The translations under genes were made by a program, and so were the position numbers. The notes beneath the pieces are model-generated. The model was not told where the DNA came from, did not search any database, and saw only the letters and a list, made by a program, of their open reading frames with translations. Positions 1-12,639 of a stretch of 64,000 nt of DNA are shown one piece after another. Every line of letters begins with the position of its first letter. Position 1 is the stretch's first letter. Origin of the DNA: Alphaproteobacteria bacterium (GTDB taxonomy: Bacteria; Pseudomonadota; Alphaproteobacteria; Rhizobiales; Rhizobiaceae); contig JANSYK010000001.1 of assembly GCA_024742485.1 (NCBI GenBank), positions 2,108,001 through 2,172,000 of the forward strand, read 5' to 3'.

Positions 1-498
1 ATTACATTTGTGCTTTTTAGACCTGACCGCTGGCAACGAGTCAGGAGCAATGCCAGTTGAACTCACCTTCCCTTGCGCAAACACACGGCGCTTGGATCTA
101 GCTTTGCAGGATTTGTTCCGACTGTGGGACCCAAAAATCAATATTCGATCGTGATCTGTCCGTGCAATTGCCTCTATGTCAGATATCGTGAATGAATCCT
201 CATCGTCGGGAACAGGGAAGCCATCCAGTGGTAGTTCTCGGCGTCCTTCCAGCCTAACACTCGCTCCGTCATCTTCTATTTGAAACAGAAATAGTCGGTC
301 TCGTACTTCATTGTCGCCAACCACCAGGCACTCGCCCTTTAGAGGCTGCGGACAATCAATTGCGACTGCTGCTGACGCTTCACACAGGGGATATCCACCA
401 AGAGACCGCTGAACTTGATCATGGGATCCTGCCTCTGCTGATAAAGTGACCGCAAAACTCATCAAATGCATAAGAATTAGTTCGCGACACCAAGTCAT
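1..498 (-). CDS. DUF3616-like secreted protein, N-terminal part, cut by left window edge
   Basis: An open frame of 166 codons starts at ATG 498-496 and runs off the left edge without a stop. A good ribosome site (GAGGTG, 8 nt spacing) precedes it. The first 22 or so residues look like a signal peptide (hydrophobic core followed by Ala-Glu-Ala-Gly). Residues 110-145 contain a DIEAIA segment followed by GSHSRNKS, which resembles the conserved core of DUF3616 proteins. These are secreted proteins of unknown function thought to be propeller-like. The family call rests on motif memory only. Seven cysteines are present, several after the predicted signal. No partner gene is visible upstream. The function is unknown. 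Confidence 0.6.
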   Translation of the reverse strand, partial: MTWCRELILMHLMSFAVTLSAEAGSHDQVQRSLGGYPLCEASAAVAIDCPQPLKGECLVVGDNEVRDRLFLFQIEDDGASVRLEGRRELPLDGFPVPDDEDSFTISDIEAIARTDHDRILIFGSHSRNKSCKARSKRRVFAQGKVSSTGIAPDSLPAVRSKKHKCN

Positions 499-1189
499 TT
501 TCAACACCTCTCATTGTTTTAAAACGACATTCTCTCAATGGTTTTCCATGTACTTATATTCAAATCTCACACAGAATACCGAGTTCGCTCTTCTCACCTG
601 ATGCTGGTTTTTTACTGGGACGCTGGATTGCTATCTGAAGGGCATCCTGGAAATCTACCCGCAGCGAATCAACTAGAGTTTGGTCAACTCGAAATGCACA
701 CCGTCCTTTCTTTCTGAGTAGTGCCCACCCCGCAAATAAACGGCCGCATTGGCTGACTCCACAAGTTCACGCACAGAACCCTTTGCCCGCACTTTGCTGG
801 AGTTTTCCCGAGCCATTTCCATGGCGTGCTAATGTCGAAAGCTGACGGTCGATCGGCCAGTGACGACGAGGTCTTGCCAAACAAGCAATTCCTAATTGGG
901 GCGGCATCAGCTACATCACATCACAACACTGTTGCCCTTCAGGCTCGATCGAGGCGCGCCGGCCTTTCAGGGCGTTCTGGTCTTCTTGGACGCTCAGGTC
1001 TATTGGGACGCTTGGGGCGTTGGCGGTGCCTGGGGAAACTAACACGATCCGCCAGGGACGGTTGAGTGGTTTTGTCGAGAATAGACAACGATTGGGGCAA
1101 TTCAAATCTCCCGGAGATACTGTTTTACCTGCATCAAACCTGGCGACCGCAGCGGTCGACCCGATATGACTCGACCATCGCTTACACAG
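499..1189. other. 691 bp without a convincing gene; probably degenerate coding DNA
   Basis: No frame here has both a good start and a ribosome site. Two minus-strand frames read like protein. Positions 822-673 give 49 codons ending in a VYLRGGHYSERKDG-type stretch and a TAG stop, with no ribosome site. Positions 1124-939 are open for 62 codons with no ATG and end in a Pro/Arg/Glu-rich run of RPNRPERPRRPERP type before TGA. The repeat in that run comes from an imperfect tandem repeat around 965-1020. They may be decayed gene ends. Confidence 0.35.
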
Positions 1190-1636
1190 TCACTTAGACG
1201 AGCATGTCTTGTGTCTGCCGTTTTCCCGGCATGCTGAAATTCTGGCCGCCGGGCCGGTGGCAAAAATCGTCGCTATACCGCCGGTATTCGCCGAGTTCGC
1301 ATTTGTGTTGAAGGCAGCATATGTAGAGAACGTGTCCTCTTCTCCCTTCGGGAGCTTGTTGGTAGCTACTTCTGACGTAGAGGTTAAAAGATTGACCTCC
1401 CCATCCGTCTCGCTTTTAGCGATTGTTGGAAGTGTAACGAAGTTTACCTCCCGAAATCCGACCGTAATCTCCGGGGCTTGTCCACCGGACACCGAAGAAG
1501 CTGACACACCCAAGGTCCGCGCACTTCCGAAGTAAATTGGAGCATTTTCGTTATAAGAGCCGCACCCCACCAATAGAACAACAACGGGCAGCAGCGAGAA
1601 TATATGGGTCACCCTATTTTCCATCACACGATACAT
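1190..1636 (-). CDS. Small predicted lipoprotein, function unknown
   Basis: The product is 148 residues. A hydrophobic N-terminus ends in a lipobox (LLVGC, Cys about residue 25), so it is predicted to be exported, cleaved by signal peptidase II and lipid-anchored. The mature part is Ser/Thr/Ala/Asn-rich and shows no catalytic motif. The chosen ATG (1636) has an AAGGA element about 10 nt upstream and overlaps the preceding lipoprotein gene by 13 bp. An internal ATG at 1624 would make a TGATG stop-start overlap. Either way the two genes appear translationally coupled. They follow the amidase gene in the same direction and may form one transcript with it. No family was recognised. Confidence 0.6.
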   Translation of the reverse strand: MYRVMENRVTHIFSLLPVVVLLVGCGSYNENAPIYFGSARTLGVSASSVSGGQAPEITVGFREVNFVTLPTIAKSETDGEVNLLTSTSEVATNKLPKGEEDTFSTYAAFNTNANSANTGGIATIFATGPAARISACRENGRHKTCSSK

Positions 1637-1995
1637 GAGTTCTCAATCCTTTTTGCCATGTCTTCAATCGCCGCAAGGTCAGCTCCTTCGTTCACAAAAA
1701 AAATGACCTGACATCCTTCAAGACAGCTTGTTTTCACATTTGTCACGCCAAGCGCACTTGTCCCGGCTACAGAAGAAAATCCGACAACTTTTACCTCCGA
1801 CACTGAGGGTCCAGACGCACCGCAACCATCGGATCTCTGAGCAGCACCCGGCTTCAAGTCAGATGTGCCAGACACCCCTGCCCCCTGACATCCGCAAACG
1901 AGAATGCTCACAATTAAGAACATCACGGAGCCACTGCAGCTACCCATCGCTGACCTGAAAGGAGATTCGGTTCGCACACTCCGAGGCTTACCCAT
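1624..1995 (-). CDS. Small predicted lipoprotein, function unknown
   Basis: The product is 123 residues, with a hydrophobic segment followed by a lipobox-like VCGC at about residue 36. An in-frame ATG at 1947 gives a shorter, more typical lipoprotein signal and may be the real start; neither start has a strong ribosome site. The mature region has paired cysteines and a C-terminal helix-like segment (AAIEDMAKRI). The gene lies 30 bp downstream of the amidase and overlaps the next lipoprotein gene. It could be a partner or envelope anchor for that enzyme, but this is inference from position only. No homologous family was recognised. Confidence 0.55.
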   Translation of the reverse strand: MGKPRSVRTESPFRSAMGSCSGSVMFLIVSILVCGCQGAGVSGTSDLKPGAAQRSDGCGASGPSVSEVKVVGFSSVAGTSALGVTNVKTSCLEGCQVIFFVNEGADLAAIEDMAKRIENSCIV

Positions 1996-2025
1996 GTCTG
2001 GACTATCCGTTTGCCAACTCAGATT

Positions 2026-2889
2026 TTACGCTTCGACAAGCCATCTACCATGGACCCATCCGGACATTTCGGCATCCCCGTTTGCATCCAAAGCCACTAC
2101 GTAACGCCAGCTACCATCAGCCTCGATAACCTCGGTCAGCGTTCCATCTGGCAAAGGGTCGTTCTGAAGCTTGTCAAAGGTAGCACCAGGTCCAGAGCGG
2201 ATGTTTAAACCAGCAGCGGACCGGACGACAAAGAGTGCATCGCCAGGGTCACCAACATCAGAGCCCTCTGAACGGCCGAACACGCGCGCCTTGAATGAAT
2301 TCATCTCCCATGCCGGCCCTGGGTCGATCTTGCGTCCCGGCGAAATATCGTCGTGACCCAATATCTCAGTAATCTCGTATTGTTCGCAAATGGCCTGGGC
2401 AACTTCGACTGTGGCTTTGATCTGAGCTTCCGTAAAGGTCTCCCATCCACAGTCAGGCTTACCAAACTTGTGCCGCGCCTCAATGACGCGGGAGTTTTCT
2501 ACTTTCGCACCCGTCCAGGACCGCCATTCACCGCCAGTCCACTTGAGCGGCCCCCAGTTTTCGATCTCGATTCCGATAGAGTATTTGTTGAGGCCGACAT
2601 AGGTTTGCCCGTTGCTCGAAATCCAGCGGCTCTTTCCTGCATGCCAACCGATCGTATCAAAAGGTACACATTGAATTACTGTTCCATCGCGCCGAACTAC
2701 TATATGTGCAGAGACCTTTGCACTGCTCTTCGAGAAGTACTTGGCGATGTTCGCACCAGGCCCACTAGCTGTGTAGTGGACAATTAGGAACCTCAAATCT
2801 GCATGGTTGCCACTTACATTGGGCGAACGAACAAGCTCGACGTTTGAGGACCCAAATGCAAGCCGATGATTACGCACTCTATATGTCAT
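2026..2889 (-). CDS. N-acetylmuramoyl-L-alanine amidase (Amidase_2) with C-terminal SH3b domain
   Basis: The product is 287 residues. Residues 25-200 form an Amidase_2/AmpD-type zinc amidase that should cleave the MurNAc-L-Ala bond of peptidoglycan. His38 (LIVHYTASG), His179 (GHDDISPG), Lys187 and Asp189 (KIDPGP) occupy the usual zinc and catalytic positions. Residues 218-285 look like a bacterial SH3 domain (LNIRSGPG, then WRYV and GWVHGRWL), a common wall-binding module. No signal peptide is evident, so a phage-type endolysin or a non-classical export route is possible. The start has a GGGAGCG ribosome site. Two small lipoprotein genes follow. It sits in the island region with the second amidase at 9330-10766. 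Confidence 0.85.
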   Translation of the reverse strand: MTYRVRNHRLAFGSSNVELVRSPNVSGNHADLRFLIVHYTASGPGANIAKYFSKSSAKVSAHIVVRRDGTVIQCVPFDTIGWHAGKSRWISSNGQTYVGLNKYSIGIEIENWGPLKWTGGEWRSWTGAKVENSRVIEARHKFGKPDCGWETFTEAQIKATVEVAQAICEQYEITEILGHDDISPGRKIDPGPAWEMNSFKARVFGRSEGSDVGDPGDALFVVRSAAGLNIRSGPGATFDKLQNDPLPDGTLTEVIEADGSWRYVVALDANGDAEMSGWVHGRWLVEA

Positions 2890-3208
2890 TTAACGCTCCC
2901 AATAGTAGTATTTCAGTTACACACCCTGCCCGATTGGAATGATGCTATCCGGGGCGGCGTGAGCCAGCTGTGAGGGGATCGTGAAACGGCTGTGAAAAAT
3001 CGGTGAGTTACGGACGCACAAACGCAGGTGGACTCAATGGCCGCTTCCGATGAATCAGGCCAGGACAAAAGGGAACTGAACCTAGGTCTTACCGGTTCGC
3101 AATTCCGCAAGTAGGATTGTCAACGGCGCATGGAGTTATTTGCAGATATTCGGGCCGCAAAAACGCATCATGGATTGCAACTTACCGTTGGGCGCCCCAA
3201 CGCGCGGT
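2890..3208. other. 319 bp intergenic stretch, nothing convincing
   Basis: The stretch separates the leftward amidase from a small leftward gene. A 25-codon plus-strand frame at 3037-3114 has an AGGTGGA element before its ATG, but is too short to support. No terminator with a T-run was seen. Confidence 0.3.
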
Positions 3209-3421
3209 TCAATCAATATCCTGCATTCCAACGCGATCGGCCAGAGCGATTAACCAACGTAATGTTTCGGCTTGATGTGGATCGAGTTTCGCTCCGTTCA
3301 GCACACGGGTCGCTACGGGTCGGAACTCGTCCCATCTGAGATGAAAATCGACTAGATCTCGAGCCGGTTCGGGACTTTTGGGACACCCATTTTTTCCTGT
3401 TTCTTCGGATGATCGGGACAT
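3209..3421 (-). CDS. Small hypothetical protein (70 aa)
   Basis: ATG 3421 gives 70 residues. The C-terminal 45 residues read like a real folded helical protein (FRPVATRVLNGAKL, then TLRWLIALADRVG). The first 25 are polar and low in pattern. A TTG 12 nt further upstream is a possible alternative start. The composition is protein-like and unlike a shadow frame, and no longer gene competes on either strand. I do not recognise the family with certainty; similar short helical proteins are found on rhizobial plasmids and islands. It is divergent from the regulator gene at 3583. Confidence 0.5.
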   Translation of the reverse strand: MSRSSEETGKNGCPKSPEPARDLVDFHLRWDEFRPVATRVLNGAKLDPHQAETLRWLIALADRVGMQDID

Positions 3422-3582
3422 GCCGCTTTTCAACCTCTTACTCGCTTTCTTGCAGCCAATTGCGCTCAGGTGCCCTAATCATAAGAGCTTATCTCGCGGT
3501 AGCCTCGTGAATAAAGTGTGAAACGGGTTGGCATCCAATACAACCAGTAATAGTCTGTGAAGTATCCTCTTCGCGCAAAGTA

Positions 3583-5250
3583 ATGGGGCGCAGTCAATTG
3601 ATAGAAAAGATGATAGAGATCAATCTATTTGGGGCGTGTATCGTCCGTGGCGGTTCAGAACACCATTACGAACTGTCGGGATCAAAACATCGTGCTCTTC
3701 TAGTTCTTCTTGCAACTGCGCCATTCGGCCGCAGAACGCGCTCATTCCTGCAGGTGACGCTTTGGGGGACAGCTTGTTACGACAGCGGACGGCAGAGTCT
3801 TCGCCGAGCACTTGCGGATATAAAGCGTATCATGGGCAATGACTTCGACATCTTGATTTCTTCGACAAACGCCGACGTCACACTCGATGTTTCAAAGGTG
3901 CGGTTCATCGGAAAGCCGGGAAGCGGCGAGTTCCTTGAAGGAATTGATCTGAAGGAGGAGGGGTTCGAGGATTGGCTACGGGGGATCCGCTCCAATCCCG
4001 AGCAGATTCATTCCCTGTTCAGCCTAGCGAGCCAGGCACCAGCCAAGGCATCCGTTCCGACAATTGCGATACTGCCGTTCCGCATGATCGCCAGCGCGGC
4101 AGATGAGGCTGTGCTCGGCGACTGGCTTGCGGAGGAGGTCTGCCGTTCGCTCTCCCGGTCGAACTTGATCTCCGTCATTTCTCACCTTTCTGCTAGAGAG
4201 GTGACGCGACGCTCTATCGAGCTGGCCCAGGTGCGGGAAAAACTGGCTGTGGACTATTGCGTATGCGGTAGCGTGCGGGTGGTTGATGGTACCGCTTTAT
4301 TGGATGCCGATATGCTTGATGCGGAATCGGGTCGGATATTGTGGACGCGAAGATTCTCCGGAAGCCTCGGCGAATTTTTGAGCTCCTCTGGCGATGCGAT
4401 CAATGAAATTGTCAGGGCCGTGGGGCGGACAATAGCGAGCGAGGCAATTACTCATGCGCGCAGCAAGGATCTGCCAAGCCTTGCTGATCACCAGCTTTTG
4501 GTCGCCGGTGTCGGATTGATGCATCAGCTCAGACTGCAAAGTTTCGCGCATTCACGCAAACTGATCGAAGAATCCGTTCGCCGTTCCCCGCGGTCGGCTG
4601 AGTCCCATGCTTGGCTGGCGGAGTGGTACGTCATGTCTGTCTTCAACGGCTGGAGCACAGACATTTCTAACGATAGCGGTAAGGCTGTCGATCACGTCGC
4701 CCGTGCACTCGATATTGATCCCGAAAACGCCTTCTGCCTGACAATCGACGGAGTCGTTAACAACAATCTGTTGCAAAGGCTGGATGTCGCGGAGAACAGG
4801 TTCAATCTTGCACTTGAATACAATCCCAACGAGTCCCTGTCGTGGCTGTTCAGCGGCGTTCTGCACGCATATCGCGACGATGGTTCCGCTGCGGTCAAAC
4901 GTGCTGAAAACGCGTTGCGGTTGTCTCCTTTGGATCCACTTGGCTATTTTTTTGATTCCTTCATGGCATCCTCGTATCTGTCGACCGGCAATTTCGAAGC
5001 TGCACTCGAGTATGCTAACCGGTCGTTGTCCGTAAATGACCGGCATCTTTCCACACACCGTGCTCGCATTTGCGCGCTTCACAATCTAGGTCGGGACGAG
5101 GAAGTTCTGCACGCCGGTGCCCAACTGTTGGAGCGGCAACCCGACTCTACTGTTTCCGGCTATATGGCAAGCCATCCCGCGTCGAGTTTCAATTTTGGAC
5201 GATTGCACGCGGATGCGTTGACTGCCGCCGGAATTCCAAAAGGAGATTAG
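3583..5250 (+). CDS. SARP/CadC-like winged-helix regulator with TolB-like and TPR domains
   Basis: The product is 555 residues. Residues 10-100 resemble the OmpR-type winged helix found in SARP-family activators (INLFGACIVRG, ALLVLLAT, LRRALADIKRI), followed by a short segment like the start of a BTAD domain. Residues 155-285 resemble the TolB/FlgO-type N-terminal fold seen in TPR regulators (TIAILPFR, DYCVCGSVRV, GRILWTRRF). Residues 300-530 are helical TPR-like repeats (ALDIDPENA, ALEYNPNES, ALRLSPLDP). There is no membrane segment, so it should be a cytosolic DNA-binding protein. ATG 3583 has a poor ribosome site and ATG 3610 is an alternative. The downstream PAP2 gene starts 2 bp after its stop, with its ribosome site inside this gene. 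The two are therefore one operon, and this protein is the likely regulator or sensor of the module. Confidence 0.7.
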   Translation: MGRSQLIEKMIEINLFGACIVRGGSEHHYELSGSKHRALLVLLATAPFGRRTRSFLQVTLWGTACYDSGRQSLRRALADIKRIMGNDFDILISSTNADVTLDVSKVRFIGKPGSGEFLEGIDLKEEGFEDWLRGIRSNPEQIHSLFSLASQAPAKASVPTIAILPFRMIASAADEAVLGDWLAEEVCRSLSRSNLISVISHLSAREVTRRSIELAQVREKLAVDYCVCGSVRVVDGTALLDADMLDAESGRILWTRRFSGSLGEFLSSSGDAINEIVRAVGRTIASEAITHARSKDLPSLADHQLLVAGVGLMHQLRLQSFAHSRKLIEESVRRSPRSAESHAWLAEWYVMSVFNGWSTDISNDSGKAVDHVARALDIDPENAFCLTIDGVVNNNLLQRLDVAENRFNLALEYNPNESLSWLFSGVLHAYRDDGSAAVKRAENALRLSPLDPLGYFFDSFMASSYLSTGNFEAALEYANRSLSVNDRHLSTHRARICALHNLGRDEEVLHAGAQLLERQPDSTVSGYMASHPASSFNFGRLHADALTAAGIPKGD

Positions 5251-5252
5251 TC

Positions 5253-6395
5253 ATGCCGCTTCTCGGACCCTTTCATGCATCTCATGCATCTCATGCATCT
5301 CATGCATCTCATGCATCTCATGCATCTCATGCATCTCATGCATCTCATGCATCCCACGCATCGGGGGGCTCATCATTCTCCGCCTACGGCTCTGAGACCG
5401 GACTGCAGTCAAGCGCACAGGCGATCGTCCATGCCGCCGGATTCGGAGAGATCAACAACATGCGAGTCAAGGCGCTTAAGTTCAGTTCTTCGGACAATCT
5501 GTCGCGATGGTCGGTAAATATAAGACGCCAGATTTTTGTTGGAGAATTTCTCCGGAATCTCGATTGGGAGATCGAATCCGCCAAGTCCATACTTCACATG
5601 AAGTGGGCGTCGATGCCATTCTTCAAACTCAAGCGTCCGACAGCGCGGCGTTTTGCGCAGGAATTGCCGTATGTCCGCGACTACGCGGATCAAAGGGCTG
5701 ACAGGAGCGCGGAGATTCTGTCACAGCTCGATTCGATTACGGACTATTTTGCAATGGTGCTGGGGCTCACCGGCTCACGAAATCCTTTCACGCTCGAACT
5801 CATAGGCTTGGTTAGTCACCTTGCGGGTCAGGCAGTGATGATACCCAAGCACGTCATGGCCTGCCGGAGGCCGGATGAGTTGGACGGCCGCCTGATGCCG
5901 CTGATTCCAACCCCTGGTCACAGCAGCTTTCCAAGCGGCCACGCGACACAAGCAGCAGCCGTTTCAACTGTGCTACAGTCGCTGCTTTCGCAATGTCCCG
6001 ATCACTTTCCGGATCACCAGGAAAGGATATCGCTAATAAAGATGATGGCACACAGAATCGCGGTGAATCGGACAGTCGCCGGTGTTCATTTTCCGATCGA
6101 CAGCTGGGCGGGCGCTTTTTTCGGAACCAAGGTGGGTGAGATCTTTACGGCAGCGGCGGGGACAAAGGTTGGACACATCTCAGCCGCATGTTTTGAGCCC
6201 AGCAAAACCAAAGGTGACTTTTTCTTCGATGATATGCATGAGGCACAGAAAGCAACCACAGATCAGAGCAGCGGTGGAAGCCCGAAGTCAAAGATGATCA
6301 AGGTGGACAAAAGCGATGAGCTGGGCTGGTTGTGGCGCAATTGCATCGCCGAGTTTGCAGTCGGCGCGCGAAGAAGAAGGGGACAAACGTCGTGA
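5253..6395 (+). CDS. Soluble PAP2 / vanadium-haloperoxidase-fold enzyme with N-terminal (His-Ala-Ser)x10
   Basis: The product is 380 residues, starting at ATG 5253 behind an AGGAGA ribosome site. The three PAP2/haloperoxidase signature blocks are present and in order: Lys199-x6-Arg206-Pro, Pro227-Ser-Gly-His230, and Arg273-x5-His279-x3-Asp283. The first residue of the third block is Asn272 instead of the usual Ser. These residues would bind phosphate or vanadate, so the enzyme is either a phosphatase or a vanadium-dependent haloperoxidase; the sequence does not decide which. No membrane helices are seen, unlike typical lipid phosphatases. Residues 8-37 are ten perfect His-Ala-Ser units, possibly metal-binding. 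The gene lies 2 bp after the regulator gene and overlaps the protease gene by GTGA. Confidence 0.75.
   Translation: MPLLGPFHASHASHASHASHASHASHASHASHASHASGGSSFSAYGSETGLQSSAQAIVHAAGFGEINNMRVKALKFSSSDNLSRWSVNIRRQIFVGEFLRNLDWEIESAKSILHMKWASMPFFKLKRPTARRFAQELPYVRDYADQRADRSAEILSQLDSITDYFAMVLGLTGSRNPFTLELIGLVSHLAGQAVMIPKHVMACRRPDELDGRLMPLIPTPGHSSFPSGHATQAAAVSTVLQSLLSQCPDHFPDHQERISLIKMMAHRIAVNRTVAGVHFPIDSWAGAFFGTKVGEIFTAAAGTKVGHISAACFEPSKTKGDFFFDDMHEAQKATTDQSSGGSPKSKMIKVDKSDELGWLWRNCIAEFAVGARRRRGQTS
5274..5363 (+). repeat. In-frame 9-bp tandem repeat, 10 units, coding (His-Ala-Ser)10
   Basis: Eight perfect copies of CATGCATCT (5274-5345) are followed by CATGCATCC and CACGCATCG, all in frame in the PAP2-type gene. 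Each unit contains the palindrome ATGCAT. Because the unit is nine bases, slippage would change protein length by three residues without breaking the frame. The two divergent units sit at the 3' end. Confidence 0.95.
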
Positions 6396-8803
6396 GCCTC
6401 CAAACCACACCTGGGTCCGCCGCTGAACCGGATTTTCTCGCGGGGCCTTTTGAAAAATGGATGTTGGAATACGGCAAGTATTACGATCTTCCGGCCCTTA
6501 GGATGCAGGATTCACCGTACCGGACGCATGTTGCGGAGGCCTTAAACGGGTCACTCGTGCCGGCATCGCTGATGGACGGTCTGTGCCTTAAGGACAAAAA
6601 CACCATCGTTCGTTTGCCAGCCCTGTGGACCGATTCCGGCCGCTACCAACTGTCATTTATTCCGTTTGTGTGCCAAGGCCTGCAAGGGCGTAGTAATAAG
6701 CAGGTTTCGTTTAAAGACTACTCTTTCGGCGATTTGGTGGATCTGGACGAGTTCTTTGGCAAAAAATTCTGGATGGAAATTGCTGAGCGCGCTCGGACCA
6801 AGTCTAACAGCGGGAACAAAGTGTCGCCATCCACATCGGCCAAATCGTTAGATAATTTGCTTTCAAAAAAGCAGCAACTTTTCTTTCGCCTGAACTACCC
6901 GATAGATCCGTCAACTTATGATGATCGCCCGATTGCGTGGCACGTGCCGGATCTCGGCTTTAGAAAACTCGCTTCGCCTGTTCCTAATGCCAAAGACGCC
7001 TCGTTGGTTATTACGGCCATAATCGACGACGGTATACCGTTTGCTCATACCAACTTCAGAACCGTCGACAACGCAAGAACACGTGTTGATTTCTGTTGGG
7101 CGCAGGGCGCTACTACACCGGTCAGAAACGAACTTGCTGAATCGAGGAGCGGCAAGACAACCACAGTGCCATTCGGTAGGGAATACGCCGCGCCAGATAT
7201 TAATGAATTGCTACAGCAATACAAAGAAGACGAAGATGCTCTTTATGGCGCTGCCGGTTTGCTTAGTGAGCCAGGCGCACCGTTAAAACCTCTCAGCCGA
7301 ATGCAATCCCACGGTGCTCACGTGCTTGACGCGCTTTCCGGCAACTGGCCTTTGGCCAGTGAAGAACAGTGCAGAATAATCGCGGTTGACCTGCCATCTA
7401 GCGCATCCTGGGACGCATCGGGTTTCGGAACTGACATGTTCGTCTTAAGTGCAATGCACTACATCTTCAAAAGGGCGGATGACATCGAGAAAGCATTCAA
7501 TAACGCCAACGGTACCAATGTAAGGGCGCGCCTGGTCGTCAATCTAAGTTACGGATTTACAGGCGGCCCACATGATGGCAGCAGTCTTATCGAGGCTGCC
7601 TTGCATGAAATGATCGAGCAACGGAGACGCAGCGCCCCGACCGCATTGACCATGCCGAGCGGAAACACCTTTCTGGAGAATTTGCACTCGGTGGTGATGG
7701 ACAAACATTTTGCAGCGACAGACAAAAACGCGGACCGCGAAGCAACGCTTCGATGGAAGTTGGCACCCGATGATCGGACGTCTAGTTTCCTGGAGATCTG
7801 GCTACCTCCAGAGCTGCCTAGCAGCAATATTGAAATCACAGTGGAGTCTCCAACGGGCTCCAAATGCCGAATGAGAGGTAAGAAACATAACGATAAGTCA
7901 CCGACATGCACGGGTATCTGTGACCAGAAAGACATCCTCGCTAGTGCTGGGATAAAGGTCGGACGATTGACACTGGACCGGTATCGTCGCGGCAAGGAAC
8001 GATTCATGATTGCGCTGGCTCCGACAGCCGCCTGCCTGCCGCAGGGCCTGCCTGCCGCGCCGTCTGGCAATTGGATTGTCCGACTGAAAAAGATGTCCGC
8101 AAACGCAAATGCAATAGGTCCGATGAACGGCCGTGCTAAGAACTCGAGTCGCGTGAAAGACGTTGGCATCGACTGTTACATCCAGCACGATATCAGTTAC
8201 GGCCAAGGCAATACGGGAGCTAGACAAAGCTACTTTGTCGACGATCAGGACATTCCGTACAATCGGCAGGGCGGTTTCAACCAGGTGGATTCTGTCGAGG
8301 GGCTGAGACCGGACCGAAACCGTGGCCGCAAAGCAAAGCTTCGGCGCTTCGGTAGCATCAATGGCATGGCCACCGCACCATCGACAATAGTGGTAGGCGG
8401 CTATGTTGAGGCCACCGCTAAAGCCTCAGTGTACAGCAGCGCGCGCGCGCTTCGATACCGAGGGCCGTATTCAATCGATCGGCTCGGCAAGGGTGTTGAT
8501 ATATCTGCAGTGACCGAGCGCAGCCAATGGCATCCGGGCATAATCGGAGCAGGAACTCGTAGTGGCATCACCGTCGCGCTGCGAGGAACCTCTTCAGCTG
8601 CGCCGCAGGTGGCAAGACAATTGGCGAAAGCGATGCTCGACTCGACTTGGACTGCCTTAGACTGGCGACAGAACGCTGATGTAAATTATCGCGACCTACT
8701 GAAGTCTATTGAAATGACCGAAGTCGCGGACCGGCCGACAGCTCATCCGGCATCGGAAGATCGTCTAGGTGCTTATGTTCTGCGGGAAACGTTCCAAACC
8801 TAA
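6392..8803 (+). CDS. Subtilisin-like serine protease (peptidase S8), cytosolic
   Basis: The start is GTG 6392 in a GTGA overlap with the PAP2 stop, with an AAGGGG element upstream, giving 803 residues. The catalytic triad is visible: Asp212 (AIIDDGIPFAH), His307 (SHGAHVLDALSG) and Ser734 (GTSSAAPQVA). A PSGN segment around residue 410 is the likely oxyanion-hole Asn. About 200 residues precede the catalytic Asp, and a long beta-rich insertion lies between the oxyanion Asn and Ser734. This is far larger than a secreted subtilisin. No signal peptide or membrane segment is present, so it should act in the cytosol. Tight coupling to the PAP2-type gene suggests that the two products work together or on one target. 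The substrate is unknown. Confidence 0.85.
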   Translation: MSLQTTPGSAAEPDFLAGPFEKWMLEYGKYYDLPALRMQDSPYRTHVAEALNGSLVPASLMDGLCLKDKNTIVRLPALWTDSGRYQLSFIPFVCQGLQGRSNKQVSFKDYSFGDLVDLDEFFGKKFWMEIAERARTKSNSGNKVSPSTSAKSLDNLLSKKQQLFFRLNYPIDPSTYDDRPIAWHVPDLGFRKLASPVPNAKDASLVITAIIDDGIPFAHTNFRTVDNARTRVDFCWAQGATTPVRNELAESRSGKTTTVPFGREYAAPDINELLQQYKEDEDALYGAAGLLSEPGAPLKPLSRMQSHGAHVLDALSGNWPLASEEQCRIIAVDLPSSASWDASGFGTDMFVLSAMHYIFKRADDIEKAFNNANGTNVRARLVVNLSYGFTGGPHDGSSLIEAALHEMIEQRRRSAPTALTMPSGNTFLENLHSVVMDKHFAATDKNADREATLRWKLAPDDRTSSFLEIWLPPELPSSNIEITVESPTGSKCRMRGKKHNDKSPTCTGICDQKDILASAGIKVGRLTLDRYRRGKERFMIALAPTAACLPQGLPAAPSGNWIVRLKKMSANANAIGPMNGRAKNSSRVKDVGIDCYIQHDISYGQGNTGARQSYFVDDQDIPYNRQGGFNQVDSVEGLRPDRNRGRKAKLRRFGSINGMATAPSTIVVGGYVEATAKASVYSSARALRYRGPYSIDRLGKGVDISAVTERSQWHPGIIGAGTRSGITVALRGTSSAAPQVARQLAKAMLDSTWTALDWRQNADVNYRDLLKSIEMTEVADRPTAHPASEDRLGAYVLRETFQT

Positions 8804-8845
8804 CATACGCCGAGATTGGACAACTGCTTCGGGACAGAGGCCACG

Positions 8846-8999
8846 TGACCTGCTCCCCTGAATGTACCCATTCATAGGCTAGCCCTGTTCGCGTTGTGGT
8901 CCATTTTGAACTGTGTTGCAAATTCGTTCGGTGTGAGCCCATCAAGGCTCGTATGTGGCCGGTTGAGATTGTAGTCGATACGCCATATCGTTCGGGGAT
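8846..8999 (-). mobile_element. IS3-family remnant: inverted-repeat end plus C-terminus of transposase OrfB
   Basis: Reading leftward, the frame from about 8999 to the TGA at 8872-8874 matches the C-terminal end of an IS3-family integrase-type transposase (WRIDYNLNRPHTSL, then LTPNEFA). Just beyond the stop, TGACCTGCTCCCC at 8846-8858 looks like the terminal inverted repeat. All upstream parts of the element are missing, so it is dead. Confidence 0.7.
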
Positions 9000-9044
9000 C
9001 GCAGTACGCATCGGCTGCACTCGGTCTTCGGTGCAAGTAAGCCG

Positions 9045-9320
9045 GCGTCCGGCCATCCATGGATCGGTTGGTGATGCCTATTACAACGCCATGTGCGAGA
9101 GCTTCTTCGCCATACTGGAATGCGAGTTGCTGGACCAGAGAAAATACCAAACCGAGGCGAAGGCCAAAATGGCCATCTTCGAGTTCATCGAGGGATAATA
9201 CAATCCTGCCCGACGCCATTCGGCGCTCGGATATCAGTCCCCGATAGCTTACGAAAGGAGGCAGGCTGAACGGCTAGAATCTGCTAGCGTATAACCGTCC
9301 ACAAAACCGGGGGAACTCCA
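9045..9320 (+). mobile_element. IS3-family remnant: broken C-terminal part of a second transposase
   Basis: Reading rightward, the frame from about 9045 gives GDAYYNAMCESFFA and ECELLDQ. It then meets an in-frame TAA at 9196-9198, after which it resumes as YNPARRHSALGYQSP and ends at TAA about 9290. This is the catalytic-core C-terminus of an IS3-type OrfB, with a nonsense codon where a Trp or Tyr codon is usual. The sequence up to 9320 (CCACAAAACCGGGGGAACTC) looks like its right inverted repeat. It faces the 8846-8999 scrap tail to tail. Confidence 0.7.
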
Positions 9321-9329
9321 ACTGCCGCA

Positions 9330-10766
9330 TCATCCCCCGAATGGACAGTCGCCGTCTTCCTGAATAATCCGCACGGTCAACGGCTGCAAATGCTTGATAC
9401 CATGGTCATAAACACGCTGCATAGAGACCTTTCCCAACCCAGTGAACAGATCGATCCGGTCATCTTGGATTGCACTCCCACCGTCAATGGCGTACCAACG
9501 CCCGTCGTGTAGGTTGCCATCGCCCAAGGGCATGCCGATGGTTTCCTCTATCTCCAACAAGCTGTTCAAGGGAACGACTTCCGGATCCACCGCTACAGCG
9601 CGCATCGGTGCCAATGGACAGGCACCTCTGCCAAGCCCGTATGCACTGCCTACTTCACTCCAGCGAATTTCGCCGCCCACTTTGCTATGGTAGTTCAACA
9701 CACGGCCGTCCGCCAGCTTCGCACTGCCCTCGATCTGCGCGCCCTCTAGAAACGCTCGTGAGACACGTGCCAGTATCGTGCCATCGGGCGCTAGAAAGGC
9801 CGCATCCGATCCGGCCGGATACTCAGAATGCATCGCCACATAATAGTTGGTTGTACGCAGCGACAGCACTGGGTGCTGGTCACCCAACCCATGCGAAAAT
9901 ATTTGGATGTCGTTTAGCAGTGCGTCCAAAGCCGTATCAAATGCTGCCAGATCAAAATTCTGAGGATCGTCGTGGCCGTCGGGCAGGTGGTTGTCCATAA
10001 CCGCATGATAGGCCGGGATTATCCAATCGCCACGCCGTACGCTGGCTGAGACGTAAAGCAAGGCGAGCCACCTGTACTGGCTTTCAGAAAAGCCGGGTTT
10101 CGGTGCAATGGCGTCATTCTTGGCACCACCCTGCGGATCACGGCGACGTGGCTGTACCAGTTCCACATGCAAGAACAATCCCCGGCTGTCCGTTCCGATC
10201 TCGTCAATCTCGAGCTTCGTGGCTCGCCAAGGCACCGAGAAGTCCAGCTGGTTGTAGACCGCCCCCTCCCGGTTTATGTAGACGTGTGCTTTTTCTTTAC
10301 CGGGTGGGCGTTGGTAACGGTCTAGATCATTAACATAAGCGTCGGAGTTCACGTTGTCTGGGAATGGATGGTCGCCATAATAAGGCCAGCTAGTGTCATG
10401 GATCACCAGATACCGCGCCTGAGGGGCGTTGTGATCATTTGTGCGGGCTCGAGACAATGGGCTAAATAAATCGCCTCCCAACTGCGCTGCCTCAAAGCCA
10501 TGCGCCTCTCGGTAGGAATCCAGTTTGCTCGCAGAGAGCTCCACGTCTGTACCCAGAAGCGCCGCGAGAGTGGGCGGCAGTTGTGATAGAGTTTCACCAA
10601 GGTGGGCATATTTGCCGACGGGGGTCAGAAGGCAGCGAGCCTGTTCAGACGGCGTACCTTTAAACGACATGGTTACGCCATCAAAATCACAATGATCGGA
10701 TGAATGCGCTATGCCCAGATCCGAAAAACTACTTAGTACTGCGATGAAAAAAATCGTATACCTCAT
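9330..10766 (-). CDS. Exported amidase-like protein with C-terminal 3D (double-psi beta-barrel) domain
   Basis: The product is 478 residues with a cleavable signal peptide (residues 1-20, cut after GIAHS or nearby). Residues 115-290 look like an Amidase_2-type fold: RYLVIHDTSW with His123, His161 in AHVYINREG, His254 in IPAYH, and HDDPQNFD at 265-272. That would make it a zinc peptidoglycan amidase. Residues 370-470 match the 3D domain of MltA/resuscitation-type lytic enzymes (VDPEVVPLNS and IDGGSAIQDDRIDLF, with three conserved Asp). An amidase joined to a 3D domain suggests a two-activity wall hydrolase. The start has CAGGAT about 13 nt upstream. The gene sits alone between the IS scraps and a 489-bp gap. 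Confidence 0.75.
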   Translation of the reverse strand: MRYTIFFIAVLSSFSDLGIAHSSDHCDFDGVTMSFKGTPSEQARCLLTPVGKYAHLGETLSQLPPTLAALLGTDVELSASKLDSYREAHGFEAAQLGGDLFSPLSRARTNDHNAPQARYLVIHDTSWPYYGDHPFPDNVNSDAYVNDLDRYQRPPGKEKAHVYINREGAVYNQLDFSVPWRATKLEIDEIGTDSRGLFLHVELVQPRRRDPQGGAKNDAIAPKPGFSESQYRWLALLYVSASVRRGDWIIPAYHAVMDNHLPDGHDDPQNFDLAAFDTALDALLNDIQIFSHGLGDQHPVLSLRTTNYYVAMHSEYPAGSDAAFLAPDGTILARVSRAFLEGAQIEGSAKLADGRVLNYHSKVGGEIRWSEVGSAYGLGRGACPLAPMRAVAVDPEVVPLNSLLEIEETIGMPLGDGNLHDGRWYAIDGGSAIQDDRIDLFTGLGKVSMQRVYDHGIKHLQPLTVRIIQEDGDCPFGG

Positions 10767-11255
10767 AAAATGATCCTGGGCGAGATTTGAGAGACAGAAA
10801 TGATTTGATTCTACTTACAGTCTGAATATTACTGCATTGTGAGTTTTCATTCCATCAGAATTCTTAATCCATACAATGGCCGTATAAACAGAAAATAAAA
10901 CGGGTTGGGTAATTTGAGAAAACTATATCCATTCCGAATACAATGCGTCAGATCACGGTGTTATGAATCGTTTCAACCTCCGCCGAAGCGATATTGCGAC
11001 TCGGAAAAGTTGATTTAGAATATCGAGAAAAGCACCGTTTTGTTACGCGACCTCAACGGCGTCGTTTGCATTAATCCGTTCAAGATTTGCAAAGTCCAGC
11101 ACACAAGCCTCGGTGCAAATTACCACCAAAGCCCGATTAGCGCCTAAGCGGCTATCGAACGAAGCTCCGAACCCAGGCCAATCAGCATCAAATTCCCTCA
11201 TATCGCCTCAAACCATACCCTGACACGCGAATAATTCGATCTTATTGTCGGGGTC
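10767..11255. other. 489 bp AT-rich intergenic gap, no gene seen
   Basis: This is the divergent spacer between the leftward amidase and the rightward integrase remnant. Both strands are broken by stops. No hairpin with a T-run, tRNA fragment or obvious direct repeat of the tRNA-Met 3' end was found. Confidence 0.4.
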
Positions 11256-12478
11256 ATGAAAAAACGCCTGACACCCAAGACTATCGATGCGTTGCAACCT
11301 GCCGATAACAAACGTTACGAGGTCCGCGATCAACTGCTGCCTGGCCTGCATCTGCGAGTGTCAGCCGCGGGTGGGAGAGTGTTCTACGTTTCCAAGCGGA
11401 TCGACCGCCGCATGAAACGCATCAGGATCGGCGCATGGCCAATTCTCTCATTGCATGAGGCCCGCGATGAGGCACGCAGCATCCTTCGTGAGATCGAACT
11501 TGGCCGCTATAACGAAAAGGCGCTGCATATTGAGCAGCCAACACCGACGCTGGGTGATGTTGTTCCGCAGTTCATTGACCTTTACGCCAAACAGCAGACC
11601 AAAGACTGGAAGGGCACTGAACGTATTCATCAAAAGTTTGCTCCGCTCTTTCCCGCCCGATCGATCAAATCAAACGCACCGACATTGTGCGTGTGCTCGA
11701 TACAGTCGTTGCCAGCGGTGCACTCATACGGGCAAACCGGGCGCTTGCAGCGATCAAAAAGCTCATGAACTGGTGCATTGACCGGGGTATGATCGAAACA
11801 TCGCCTGTGGCCGCCCTCAGGCCGCCAACAAGGGAGGTTGCACGTGATCGTGTGCTCACAGATGATGAATTAATCGCCATCTAGAATGCTGGCGCGCCCG
11901 AGGGCTTCCCATTTGCGCACTTCGTGCAGCTACTCATTCTGACGTGTCAACGCCGTGGCGAAGTCGCAGGTATGTGCTGGCCGGAGGTTGATCTCGACAA
12001 AGGCATTTGGACGCTTCCCGGCAGGCGTGCCAAGAACGCCACGTCGCACATCGTGCCGTTGGCACCCCTGACCATAACTGTCCTCAAGTCAGAGCCGAGG
12101 TTTTTGAATAGCGATCTGGTGTTTACAACAACAGGTACCTCACCCATTTCGGGTTTTGGTCGGCTGAAGGAGCGCCTTGATTGCGCCATGGGGTCCAACG
12201 TCGAAGACTGGCGGGTCCATGACCTGCGCCGCACGATGGCCACCAACATGGCAATGATGCGCATTCAACCGCATATCATCGAAGCCGTCCTCAACCACAA
12301 AACGGGTATAGTCTCAGGTGTCGCTGCAACCTAAAAATGTCATGCATATCTGGATGAAAAACGCGAAGCGCTGGAGGCTTGGCTTTACGGTGCCAGTATA
12401 CTAAATCCATTGTTGACCTTCGAGCATTCCACAATGGCGACAACCGACAATCTTAAGGCATTCAAGCACAGCCATTAG
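11256..12478 (+). pseudogene. Tyrosine recombinase (phage/island integrase), inactivated
   Basis: The frame begins as a P4-type integrase: an arm-binding DUF4102 domain (LTPKTIDAL, LLPGLHLRVS), then a core-binding domain. A frameshift near 11640-11660 moves the reading to a frame running through IKRTDIVRVLD to a TAG at 11881-11883. The catalytic domain resumes in another frame (TCQRRGEVAGM with the first Arg, HDLRRTMATN, VLNHKTG). A TAA at 12332-12334 falls exactly where the catalytic Tyr codon belongs. The original C-terminus (AYLDEKREALEAW) is still readable after it, to TAG 12476-12478. At least three lesions make it non-functional. It lies next to the 3' end of tRNA-Met, the usual attachment site for such enzymes. 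Confidence 0.9.
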
Positions 12479-12562: not shown

Positions 12563-12639
12563 TGGTAGCGGGAGAGGGACTTGAACCCCCGACACGCGGA
12601 TTATGATTCCGCTGCTCTAACCACCTGAGCTACCCCGCC
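12563..12639 (-). tRNA. tRNA-Met (anticodon CAU)
   Basis: The 77-nt minus-strand cloverleaf has acceptor strands GGCGGGG and UCCCGCU, D arm GCUC...GAGC, anticodon stem GCGGA/UCCGC with loop AUCAUAA, and T arm GGGGG/CCCUC with loop UUCAAGU. It ends in an encoded CCA. Anticodon CAU together with the GC-rich acceptor fits elongator Met better than the lysidine-modified Ile2 tRNA of this group. Its 3' end faces the integrase remnant. Confidence 0.93.

Follow-up and report, generated by a model that had tools for sequence, protein, structure and literature searches.

The DNA stretch analysed here, called the window, comprises 64,000 nucleotides of contig JANSYK010000001.1 (assembly GCA_024742485.1, forward-strand positions 2,108,001 to 2,172,000) from an alphaproteobacterium of the Rhizobiaceae. 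It contains a cassette of three genes coding for a regulator with tetratricopeptide repeats (TPR), referred to as REG, an enzyme with the PAP2/vanadium-haloperoxidase fold, and a subtilisin-like protease of family S8. The PAP2 enzyme carries close to its N-terminus ten tandem copies of the tripeptide His-Ala-Ser, (HAS)10. This array is one case of a family-wide rule: PAP2 proteins linked to such a regulator start with a perfect tandem array, and its unit is hypervariable, being different in most lineages. The initial annotation of the cassette named (HAS)10 in its title only, and the role of the repeat as the distinctive element was missed. The features of the cassette are the following.

3583..5250, + strand: TPR regulator (REG), 555 aa, with an N-terminal winged-helix-like part, a TolB-like part and a C-terminal TPR solenoid
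4480..5217, + strand: TPR half of REG, approximately residues 300-545, the part covarying with the array unit
5253..6395, + strand: PAP2/vanadium-haloperoxidase-fold enzyme, 380 aa, from a PF01569 match and an AlphaFold2 model
5274..5363, + strand: (HAS)10 array, PAP2 residues 8-37, a 9-bp unit repeated ten times with 97% matches (Tandem Repeats Finder), in a low-confidence segment of the model
5847..6089, + strand: PAP2 catalytic residues K199, R206, S228, H230, R273 and H279, invariant in 65/65 aligned sequences
6392..8803, + strand: S8 (subtilisin-like) protease with a Csp-like fold, 803 aa, GTG start
7025..8593, + strand: S8 catalytic residues D212, H307, N425 (oxyanion) and S734, invariant in 57/57 aligned sequences

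REG and PAP2 are separated by 2 bp. The PAP2 gene has its ATG at 5253 and its stop codon at 6393-6395, and the GTG of S8 at 6392 creates a GTGA overlap with the end of PAP2. The coordinates of the cassette, 3583-8803, bear out the tight linkage of the three genes described initially.

How often the three genes occur together, a question raised by the initial annotation, was examined in 90 loci (individual loci carry the prefix L and genomes the prefix G). PAP2 matches in 44 plasmid records supplied 10 of these loci; the other 80 are the best among 428 relatives that the PAP2 alignment retrieved from genomes. Among these loci, chosen by PAP2 similarity, an S8 homologue is found in 89/90 and REG in 89/90, and the two loci with a gene missing, L076 (S8) and L077 (REG), are situated at the ends of contigs. 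The strand of S8 agrees with that of PAP2 in 88 loci and is opposite in 1; REG is codirectional in 80/89. Even genome surveys were added because the 90 loci had been selected by similarity. A PAP2 match at E≤1e-20 is present in 13/385 genomes of the class, the window's own included, and a match at E≤1e-15 in 108 of 345 genomes, sampled at nearly one per genus, from the family to which G331 belongs. This family is presumably the Rhodobacteraceae, because the locus of G331 (L139) is 95% identical in PAP2 to L007 from Phaeobacter. In the survey of this family 127 of 129 places were examined, some of them from the same species as in the 90-locus set. REG is found in 121 of the 127 loci, a repeat run of at least 6 residues in 121, and an S8 match in 96, leaving 31 without one. 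REG lies on the PAP2 strand in 57/121 loci, and S8 lies on it in 71/96 and on the opposite strand in 25/96. From these counts of presence and strand, S8 and the tight operon are therefore optional, and REG with the array-bearing PAP2 is the core. The operon linkage proposed at first is conserved in the loci chosen by similarity; however, the strand counts of the even survey do not support a tight operon as a general feature.

A perfect tandem array is present at the start of the PAP2 protein in 121/127 survey loci. Among the exceptions, the array is imperfect in L243, degenerate in L285 and in another frame in L248, L266 is located at the edge of a contig, and no array was found in L252 and L265. 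In the 90-locus set L056 (array in another frame) and L068 (N-masked) were excluded from the array statistics. The copies in L056 and L248 are damaged or mis-sequenced, because the array and the PAP2 body are in different frames. The units of the 90-locus relatives include GGF, GGL, GGI, GSF, NSF, TAQ, SGGY, SGD and NGL, and the survey adds NR, SR, NK, GQ, GS, GKE, ENW, GHE, TPH, GGGGA and NGGM, among others. The 205 non-redundant loci used for statistics contain 109 distinct units with a period of 3 in 152 loci, 4 in 34, 2 in 17 and 5 in 2; longer periods occur in L153 (6) and L151 (8). The copy number ranges from 3 to 20 (214 loci). A run of at least 9 in the first 100 residues was seen in 17/2068 other open frames of the same loci, many of these being antisense shadows of arrays or AAPAKK-rich proteins.

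The array is also associated with the regulator. Three PAP2 proteins with a secretion-type start and without REG (L154-L156) are all without an array. In a set of 30 loci centred on REG, 14 have a PAP2 match and 13 of these show an array; in the fourteenth, L303, it was missed by a script that accepted ATG starts only, and the array is present at the same place in L178. Among the 16 REG-centred loci without a PAP2 match, 15 have no array, and in L311 a GVH array continues up to the end of the contig; L312 and L319 are truncated as well. A second family of array-tagged PAP2 proteins with a regulator is found in L142-L147, L149, L150 and L262-L289, often with the dipeptides (NR)n, (SR)n and (NK)n and, one weak match aside, without S8. 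In the window's own genus L151 combines the period-8 array GGGLAGSH with S8 and has no regulator match within 4.1 kb.

Two known kinds of repeat were considered and rejected. Pfam Collagen is matched by 12/65 members, but HAS, NSF, TAQ and the arrays of period 2 and 4 lack Gly at every third residue. The HAS unit fits the pattern of the His-Xaa-Ser (HxsA) peptides, with a match to NCBIfam HisXaaSer_A4 at E 2.2e-4. However, this match scores 22.1 bits against a cut-off of 55, and the relatives carry other units, which argues against a substrate of the Hxs radical-SAM enzyme. The likeness to HxsA belongs to the HAS unit alone, because the relatives have more than 100 other units.

Differences between units of the same array were counted in 803 units from 89 arrays, the window's own and those of 88 loci; 49 of the units are imperfect, many at array edges. 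Synonymous sites differ at p_S 0.77 (7191/9317 sites), while nonsynonymous sites differ at p_N 0.040 (938/23590), which is a lower bound because an array was defined to stop at any unit with two or more deviating residues. The repetition itself is selected, because the units vary freely at synonymous sites and hardly at all in amino acids. An explanation at the level of DNA or RNA is rejected for the family, as third codon positions differ freely but amino acids do not. Four-fold degenerate sites within arrays differ on average by 0.65, and a few loci have low values (L062 0.33, L072 0.17, L077 0.14). In the window array 8/10 units are identical in DNA. This points to a recent expansion, and the window array alone is uninformative on selection. 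Avoidance of identical neighbouring units was not found: 43/648 adjacent pairs are identical, compared with 45.7 expected from a shuffle of units and 34.4 from a shuffle of codons.

The unit can be switched between close relatives, as in L061 (SAGV) and L062 (SGGY) or L020 (GGI) and L021 (GGV). The PAP2 bodies in such pairs are 92-94% identical (94% for SAGV/SGGY), and the four-fold differences within their arrays are still high. On nine Phaeobacter plasmids (L007, L290-L297) the NSF unit is present in 5, 6 or 7 copies, and the bodies are 97.6-100% identical over 250 residues; here the copy number drifts and the unit stays. Seven of these nine plasmids are typed as conjugative, and the only annotation of the gene that follows PAP2 in L295 is hypothetical protein.

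Coupling between the unit and REG was analysed in loci other than the window and L068 with a REG match, a REG read of at least 360 residues and a repeat run of at least 6. Two clades of 13 loci each, of the Marivita type and the Hydrogenophaga type, were formed from strict clusters and their near relatives. In both, pairs of loci with the same unit have more similar REG4 and REG5 segments (the last 40% of REG) than the rest of the locus predicts (p 0.001 and 0.0005). The other segments, S8 and TolB included, are mostly near zero, with the exceptions of PAP2 segment 1 in the first clade (p 0.03) and S8 segment 2 in the second (p 0.047). For the strict clusters (10 and 9 loci) the p values are 0.008 and 0.0015 with the TPR half, 0.50 and 0.058 with the other half of REG, and 0.81 and 0.16 with S8. 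As S8 shows little coupling with the unit apart from the one segment in one clade, it was rejected as the unit reader. With all 205 loci REG6 (p 0.001) is the only REG segment to stand out, REG5 being at p 0.054, and the first quarter of PAP2 stands out beside it; with the 138 codirectional loci the coupling is seen for REG5 (p 0.002), for REG6 (p 0.001) and, at p 0.004, for the first quarter of PAP2. Where REG is encoded on the opposite strand (67 loci), its TPR end faces away from the array, and the effect is present in REG4 (+0.107) and REG5 (+0.068), both at p 0.001. In nearest-neighbour prediction of unit composition the TPR part performs better than TolB at all cuts (p ≤4e-4). Charge complementarity of the whole domain was discarded as unspecific: the correlation is rho -0.21 for the TPR part of REG but -0.33 for the PAP2 body.

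Single columns of REG were compared by permuting units within REG clusters, with the TPR registers assigned by eye. Positions 2, 5, 6, 9, 12 and 13 of a TPR are those that we take to line the groove. In five TPRs these positions have a mean z of 1.22, compared with -0.09 for other TPR columns (p 0.009), and z exceeds 3 in 5/30 groove columns and 2/140 others. The TolB columns have a mean z of -0.37, with 1/140 above 3. The top columns are 304 (position 9 of TPR5, z 10.6) and 335 (position 6 of TPR6, z 6.2). Column 304 is S in 15/16 GGF loci (T in one) and T in 11/11 GGI loci; with FNS, FGS, GYN, AYG and GWT it is G, but with other aromatic units the residue is A, N, T or I. At column 335 all GGI (11/11) and GGV (7/7) loci have A. 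Column 263 is D in 12/12 loci with NR, SR, NK or TK, other Arg units having Q or L, and all 11 W at this column accompany Gly-rich units of period 2, 4 or 5. In five independent pairs of cationic and neutral units, an acid at column 263 is present in the cationic member only in 3 and in the reverse case in 0. The pattern of columns looks like size and charge complementarity. The window REG has L306, R317, V391, L422, S463, A494 and F538 at the covarying columns.

The window PAP2 protein matches Pfam PF01569 at E 3.6e-10 (40.1 bits, gathering score 27.2), and the family is matched by 65/65 members of the alignment at E≤0.1. The catalytic motif of this superfamily is worded K-x6-R-P, PSGH and R-x5-H. 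The window protein fits it in the 65-sequence alignment. The AlphaFold2 model has a mean predicted local distance difference test (pLDDT) of 86.5, with 283/380 residues at 90 or above. Residues 1-43, array included, are below 50, the remainder being confident, and this segment is probably disordered. In the fold search class A acid phosphatases rank at the top (E 1.6e-5) and bacterial vanadium haloperoxidases lower, with iodoperoxidase 4usz at rank 23 (E 2.5e-3); a haloperoxidase as the closest solved fold was thus rejected. Both groups share the fold and the catalytic motif with PAP2, but the PAP2 protein is apparently cytosolic, has an additional N-terminal region bearing the array, and is an enzyme by prediction. 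Inspection of the window PAP2 by eye, with no export predictor run, did not reveal a signal peptide; the earlier statement that the cassette proteins lack signal peptides and membrane helices agrees with this inspection and with the soluble PAP2 model, a predictor not being part of the comparison.

The S8 protein matches PF00082 at E 4e-4 with 20.2 bits, slightly under the cut-off of 21.8, and its AlphaFold2 model has a mean pLDDT of 80.9. The best PDB match is 9sj6 by a profile of relatives (E 7.5e-25) and 4i0w by fold (E 4.4e-24, TM 0.72 on the target). By its sequence profile and predicted fold the protein can be firmly placed with the Csp subtilases, or germination proteases. This group includes CspB, CspA and CspC; the catalytic residues of the window S8 are intact. 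The S8 loci differ from those of Csp in being proteobacterial and in having a different partner. A context of sporulation or germination was rejected, as the S8 loci are found in alpha- and betaproteobacteria beside PAP2, and these hosts are not known to sporulate. The complete catalytic sets reported initially for both enzymes are supported by their invariance in the 65 PAP2 and 57 S8 sequences.

The window REG matches Pfam TPR_2 at E 2.1e-7. Its winged-helix and TolB labels reflect sequence resemblance; the relative in L007 carries Pfam Trans_reg_C, and the relatives in L006 and L010 are cyclase-type regulators (Pfam Guanylate_cyc). Assignment to the HilA/EilA regulators (PRK12370) was rejected, with 41.5 bits against an NCBIfam cut-off of 589. 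A gene of the Crp/Fnr (cyclic-nucleotide-binding) type is near 16/90 loci, including L005 (4315-5109), L010 and L060-L062. In L010 this neighbour occurs together with the cyclase domain in the regulator.

These observations allow us to propose a cytosolic switch, in which the array may be an address tag that docks the PAP2 enzyme to its own regulator, within the groove formed by the TPRs. We give this docking model about an even chance, because the tree-corrected and prediction tests are weaker. The N-terminal perfect array of a short peptide would act as a multivalent tag, and its unit would be recognised by the concave groove of the cognate TPR solenoid, making the enzyme and the regulator a private pair. 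Aes and MalY are enzyme partners that bind the TPR-type regulator MalT and gate transcription. The PAP2 enzyme could gate its regulator in a similar way, or be recruited by it. The output of the regulator might be transcription in the window type, with its winged helix assigned by resemblance, or a cyclic nucleotide in the cyclase-type relatives. S8, where present, may cut the array or the linker, freeing the enzyme and the regulator, a releasing role that only its Csp-like fold and its position suggest. Physical binding, the direction of control, cleavage and the enzyme's substrate are thus all putative parts of the switch.

A number of results speak against docking in the TPR groove. Four-fold divergence is in excess in REG5 of the first clade and in REG2 and REG3 of the second; recombination may therefore add to the coupling signal. 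When all 205 loci are taken together, REG4 is without effect (p 0.59), and a signal comes from the first quarter of PAP2 (p 0.006). The test with REG on the opposite strand rests on 14 same-unit pairs, and PAP2 segment 2 is positive in it too (+0.056, p 0.003). As a predictor of the unit the TPR part is less clearly separated from PAP2 (p 0.024, 0.052, 0.37, 0.001 and 0.038), and at the strictest cut the exact unit is found by PAP2 alone in 10 loci and by the TPR part alone in 6. High z values (4.8 and 4.3) occur at columns 383 and 210, which are not part of the assigned groove or registers, and column 263 reaches a z of only 2.4 under permutation within clusters. Phylogenetic generalised least squares (PGLS) favours the groove for mean unit volume only (p 0.04) and not for maximum volume, charge or hydropathy; for mean volume column 263 has t -4.4 and column 232 t -3.6, and a TolB column ranks second. 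In 20 independent pairs of aromatic and aliphatic units, column 304 splits 9:2 with 8 ties (p 0.065), and the best column, 379 (15:1, p 5e-4, not corrected for the number of columns), is in the C-terminal cap. It should also be noted that the TPRs of REG are themselves not perfect repeats.

The docking model could be extended to a natural modular peptide code, in which each TPR groove reads one repeated peptide on its partner enzyme, with more than 100 pairs of tag and reader in Pseudomonadota that are insulated within a shared cell. We regard this extension as tentative, its probability being somewhat below even. Genomes with several loci carry different units (SAY, GS and DGAV in G633; NAY, GHT and NR in G735). 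This fits insulation, but chance predicts the same, since the unit is identical in 1.7% of random pairs.

Other explanations of the array have to be compared with docking. The array could be a multi-core peptide precursor, cut by S8 into many identical short peptides; the TPR regulator would sense these as a signal, inside the cell or after export, in the manner of RRNPP systems, and the PAP2 body would be a carrier or tailoring enzyme. Perfect repeats with synonymous variation and a fast-changing unit are typical of multi-copy precursors of pheromones and of ribosomally synthesised and post-translationally modified peptides (RiPPs), and the coupling of unit and TPR half would fit equally. There are precedents in tandemly repeated pheromones of Rap-Phr systems (PMC11343458) and in a TVGG-repeat RiPP (PMC9062424). 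However, no signal peptide is apparent, no dedicated exporter is common to most loci among the 12 largest neighbour families listed, arrays occur in loci without an S8 match, GS, GGGGA and NR have no common chemistry of cleavage or modification, and S8 covaries little with the unit; we consider this explanation unlikely. Self-association of the enzyme as a condensate, fibre or multimer, driven by the array with no dedicated reader, agrees with the many units that are like low-complexity motifs (GGF, SGGY, NSF) and with the position of the array in a low-confidence segment of the model. But the units range from NR to SSD to GGGGA without a shared chemistry, and the coupling with the TPR half would be left unexplained, which makes such an assembly tag quite unlikely in our estimate.

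CspB removes the propeptide of pro-SleC. By analogy the array could block the PAP2 active site until it is removed by the Csp-like protease, which resembles Csp in sequence and fold and is present in 89/90 loci. This is improbable in our opinion, given that the second family has arrays without an S8 match, that a propeptide does not require perfect repetition, and that S8 and unit show little covariation. The coupling might also arise with no contact between array and regulator, as a consequence of genetic linkage, common ancestry and recombination around the array, the arrays being kept for other reasons, for example against unfolding proteases. The excess four-fold divergence in some REG segments, the coupling of the first PAP2 quarter with the unit and the weak PGLS result all agree with this, but the coupling of the TPR half persists with REG on the other strand and is concentrated on groove positions. 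We see a slim chance that this explanation is correct.

Docking of a repeated tag in a TPR groove has partial counterparts in known systems. MalT is a STAND ATPase, and its partners are without an array. The RRNPP/RRNPPA regulators (Rap, PlcR, ComR) are likewise cytosolic TPR proteins encoded beside a gene for a variable cognate peptide, and receptor and peptide are reported to coevolve (PMC8605241, PMC10075063). In the present case, however, a perfect array is fused to an enzyme with no apparent signal peptide, and the regulator, found in Pseudomonadota, is of another TPR family and may include a cyclase. A passage on designed modular repeat-peptide binders describes superhelical matching, by which a helical repeat protein reads 4-6 tandem tripeptide copies (PMC10115654). 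This is the geometry proposed here for TPR and array, but those proteins are engineered, and the natural TPRs of REG are not identical repeats and their binding is putative. No description of such a system was found in open PMC papers, in keeping with the initial annotation, which knew none of this composition; subscription journals or preprints could hold one. A term search gave no mention of PAP2 or haloperoxidase in two papers on bacterial conflict and cell-death systems, and PADLOC-DB gave 0 matches for the three cassette proteins at E≤1. Members are named in the records examined only as PAP2 family protein, S8 peptidase, hypothetical protein, or generic regulator or cyclase. The parts are of known kinds, and to our knowledge a hypervariable, perfectly repeated enzyme tag coupled to the TPR half of a regulator is new.

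A unit that can change almost freely while its perfect repetition is under selection is an evolutionary signature rarely seen, and it characterises this entire family of enzymes. Should the TPR half prove to be the reader of the unit, nature would offer a ready library of peptide tags and readers, peptide recognition by helical repeats could be tested with more than 100 natural variants, and there would be a working model for a conserved cassette known so far by generic names. If the code is true, it would be a natural counterpart of designed pairs of repeat protein and repeat peptide, whose pairing rules could be deduced from genome sequences.

Among the 12 largest neighbour families listed for the 90 loci, none is a universal fourth gene. 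A group of ABC ATPases, present in 21/90 loci, seems to mix different transporters, judging from the locus maps and one member scanned with Pfam. Downstream of S8, a gene of the animal haem peroxidase family is found in 8/90 loci, and a fusion of an alpha/beta hydrolase with a trypsin-like domain in 8/90, giving a set of peroxidase, protease and lipase, for example in L047 (10136-14533), L036, L038, L041 and L044. A role of the system in conflict is possible because of these downstream genes, and the defence, toxin or stress module considered initially is likewise a possible function. Carriage by viruses appears unlikely, the 42 viral matches being weak (best E 2e-10).

The cassette is located in a tRNA-linked island with scraps of mobile elements, as initially described, and the following elements lie beside it.

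8872-9219: transposase scrap
11256-12334: split integrase, an integrase-type sequence in two frames that adjoins the tRNA-Met
12563-12639: tRNA-Met

The integrase sequence in two frames is possibly a remnant of the island's integrase. The GC content is 0.51-0.56 across positions 1-12000 of the window and mostly 0.56-0.62 in the remainder to its right, apart from a single 2-kb segment at 0.519. A pair of cell-wall-type genes, both on the - strand, is found on either side of the cassette (2026-2889 and 9330-10766); by Pfam these code for an Amidase_2 protein with a weak SH3_3 match and a 3D-domain protein.

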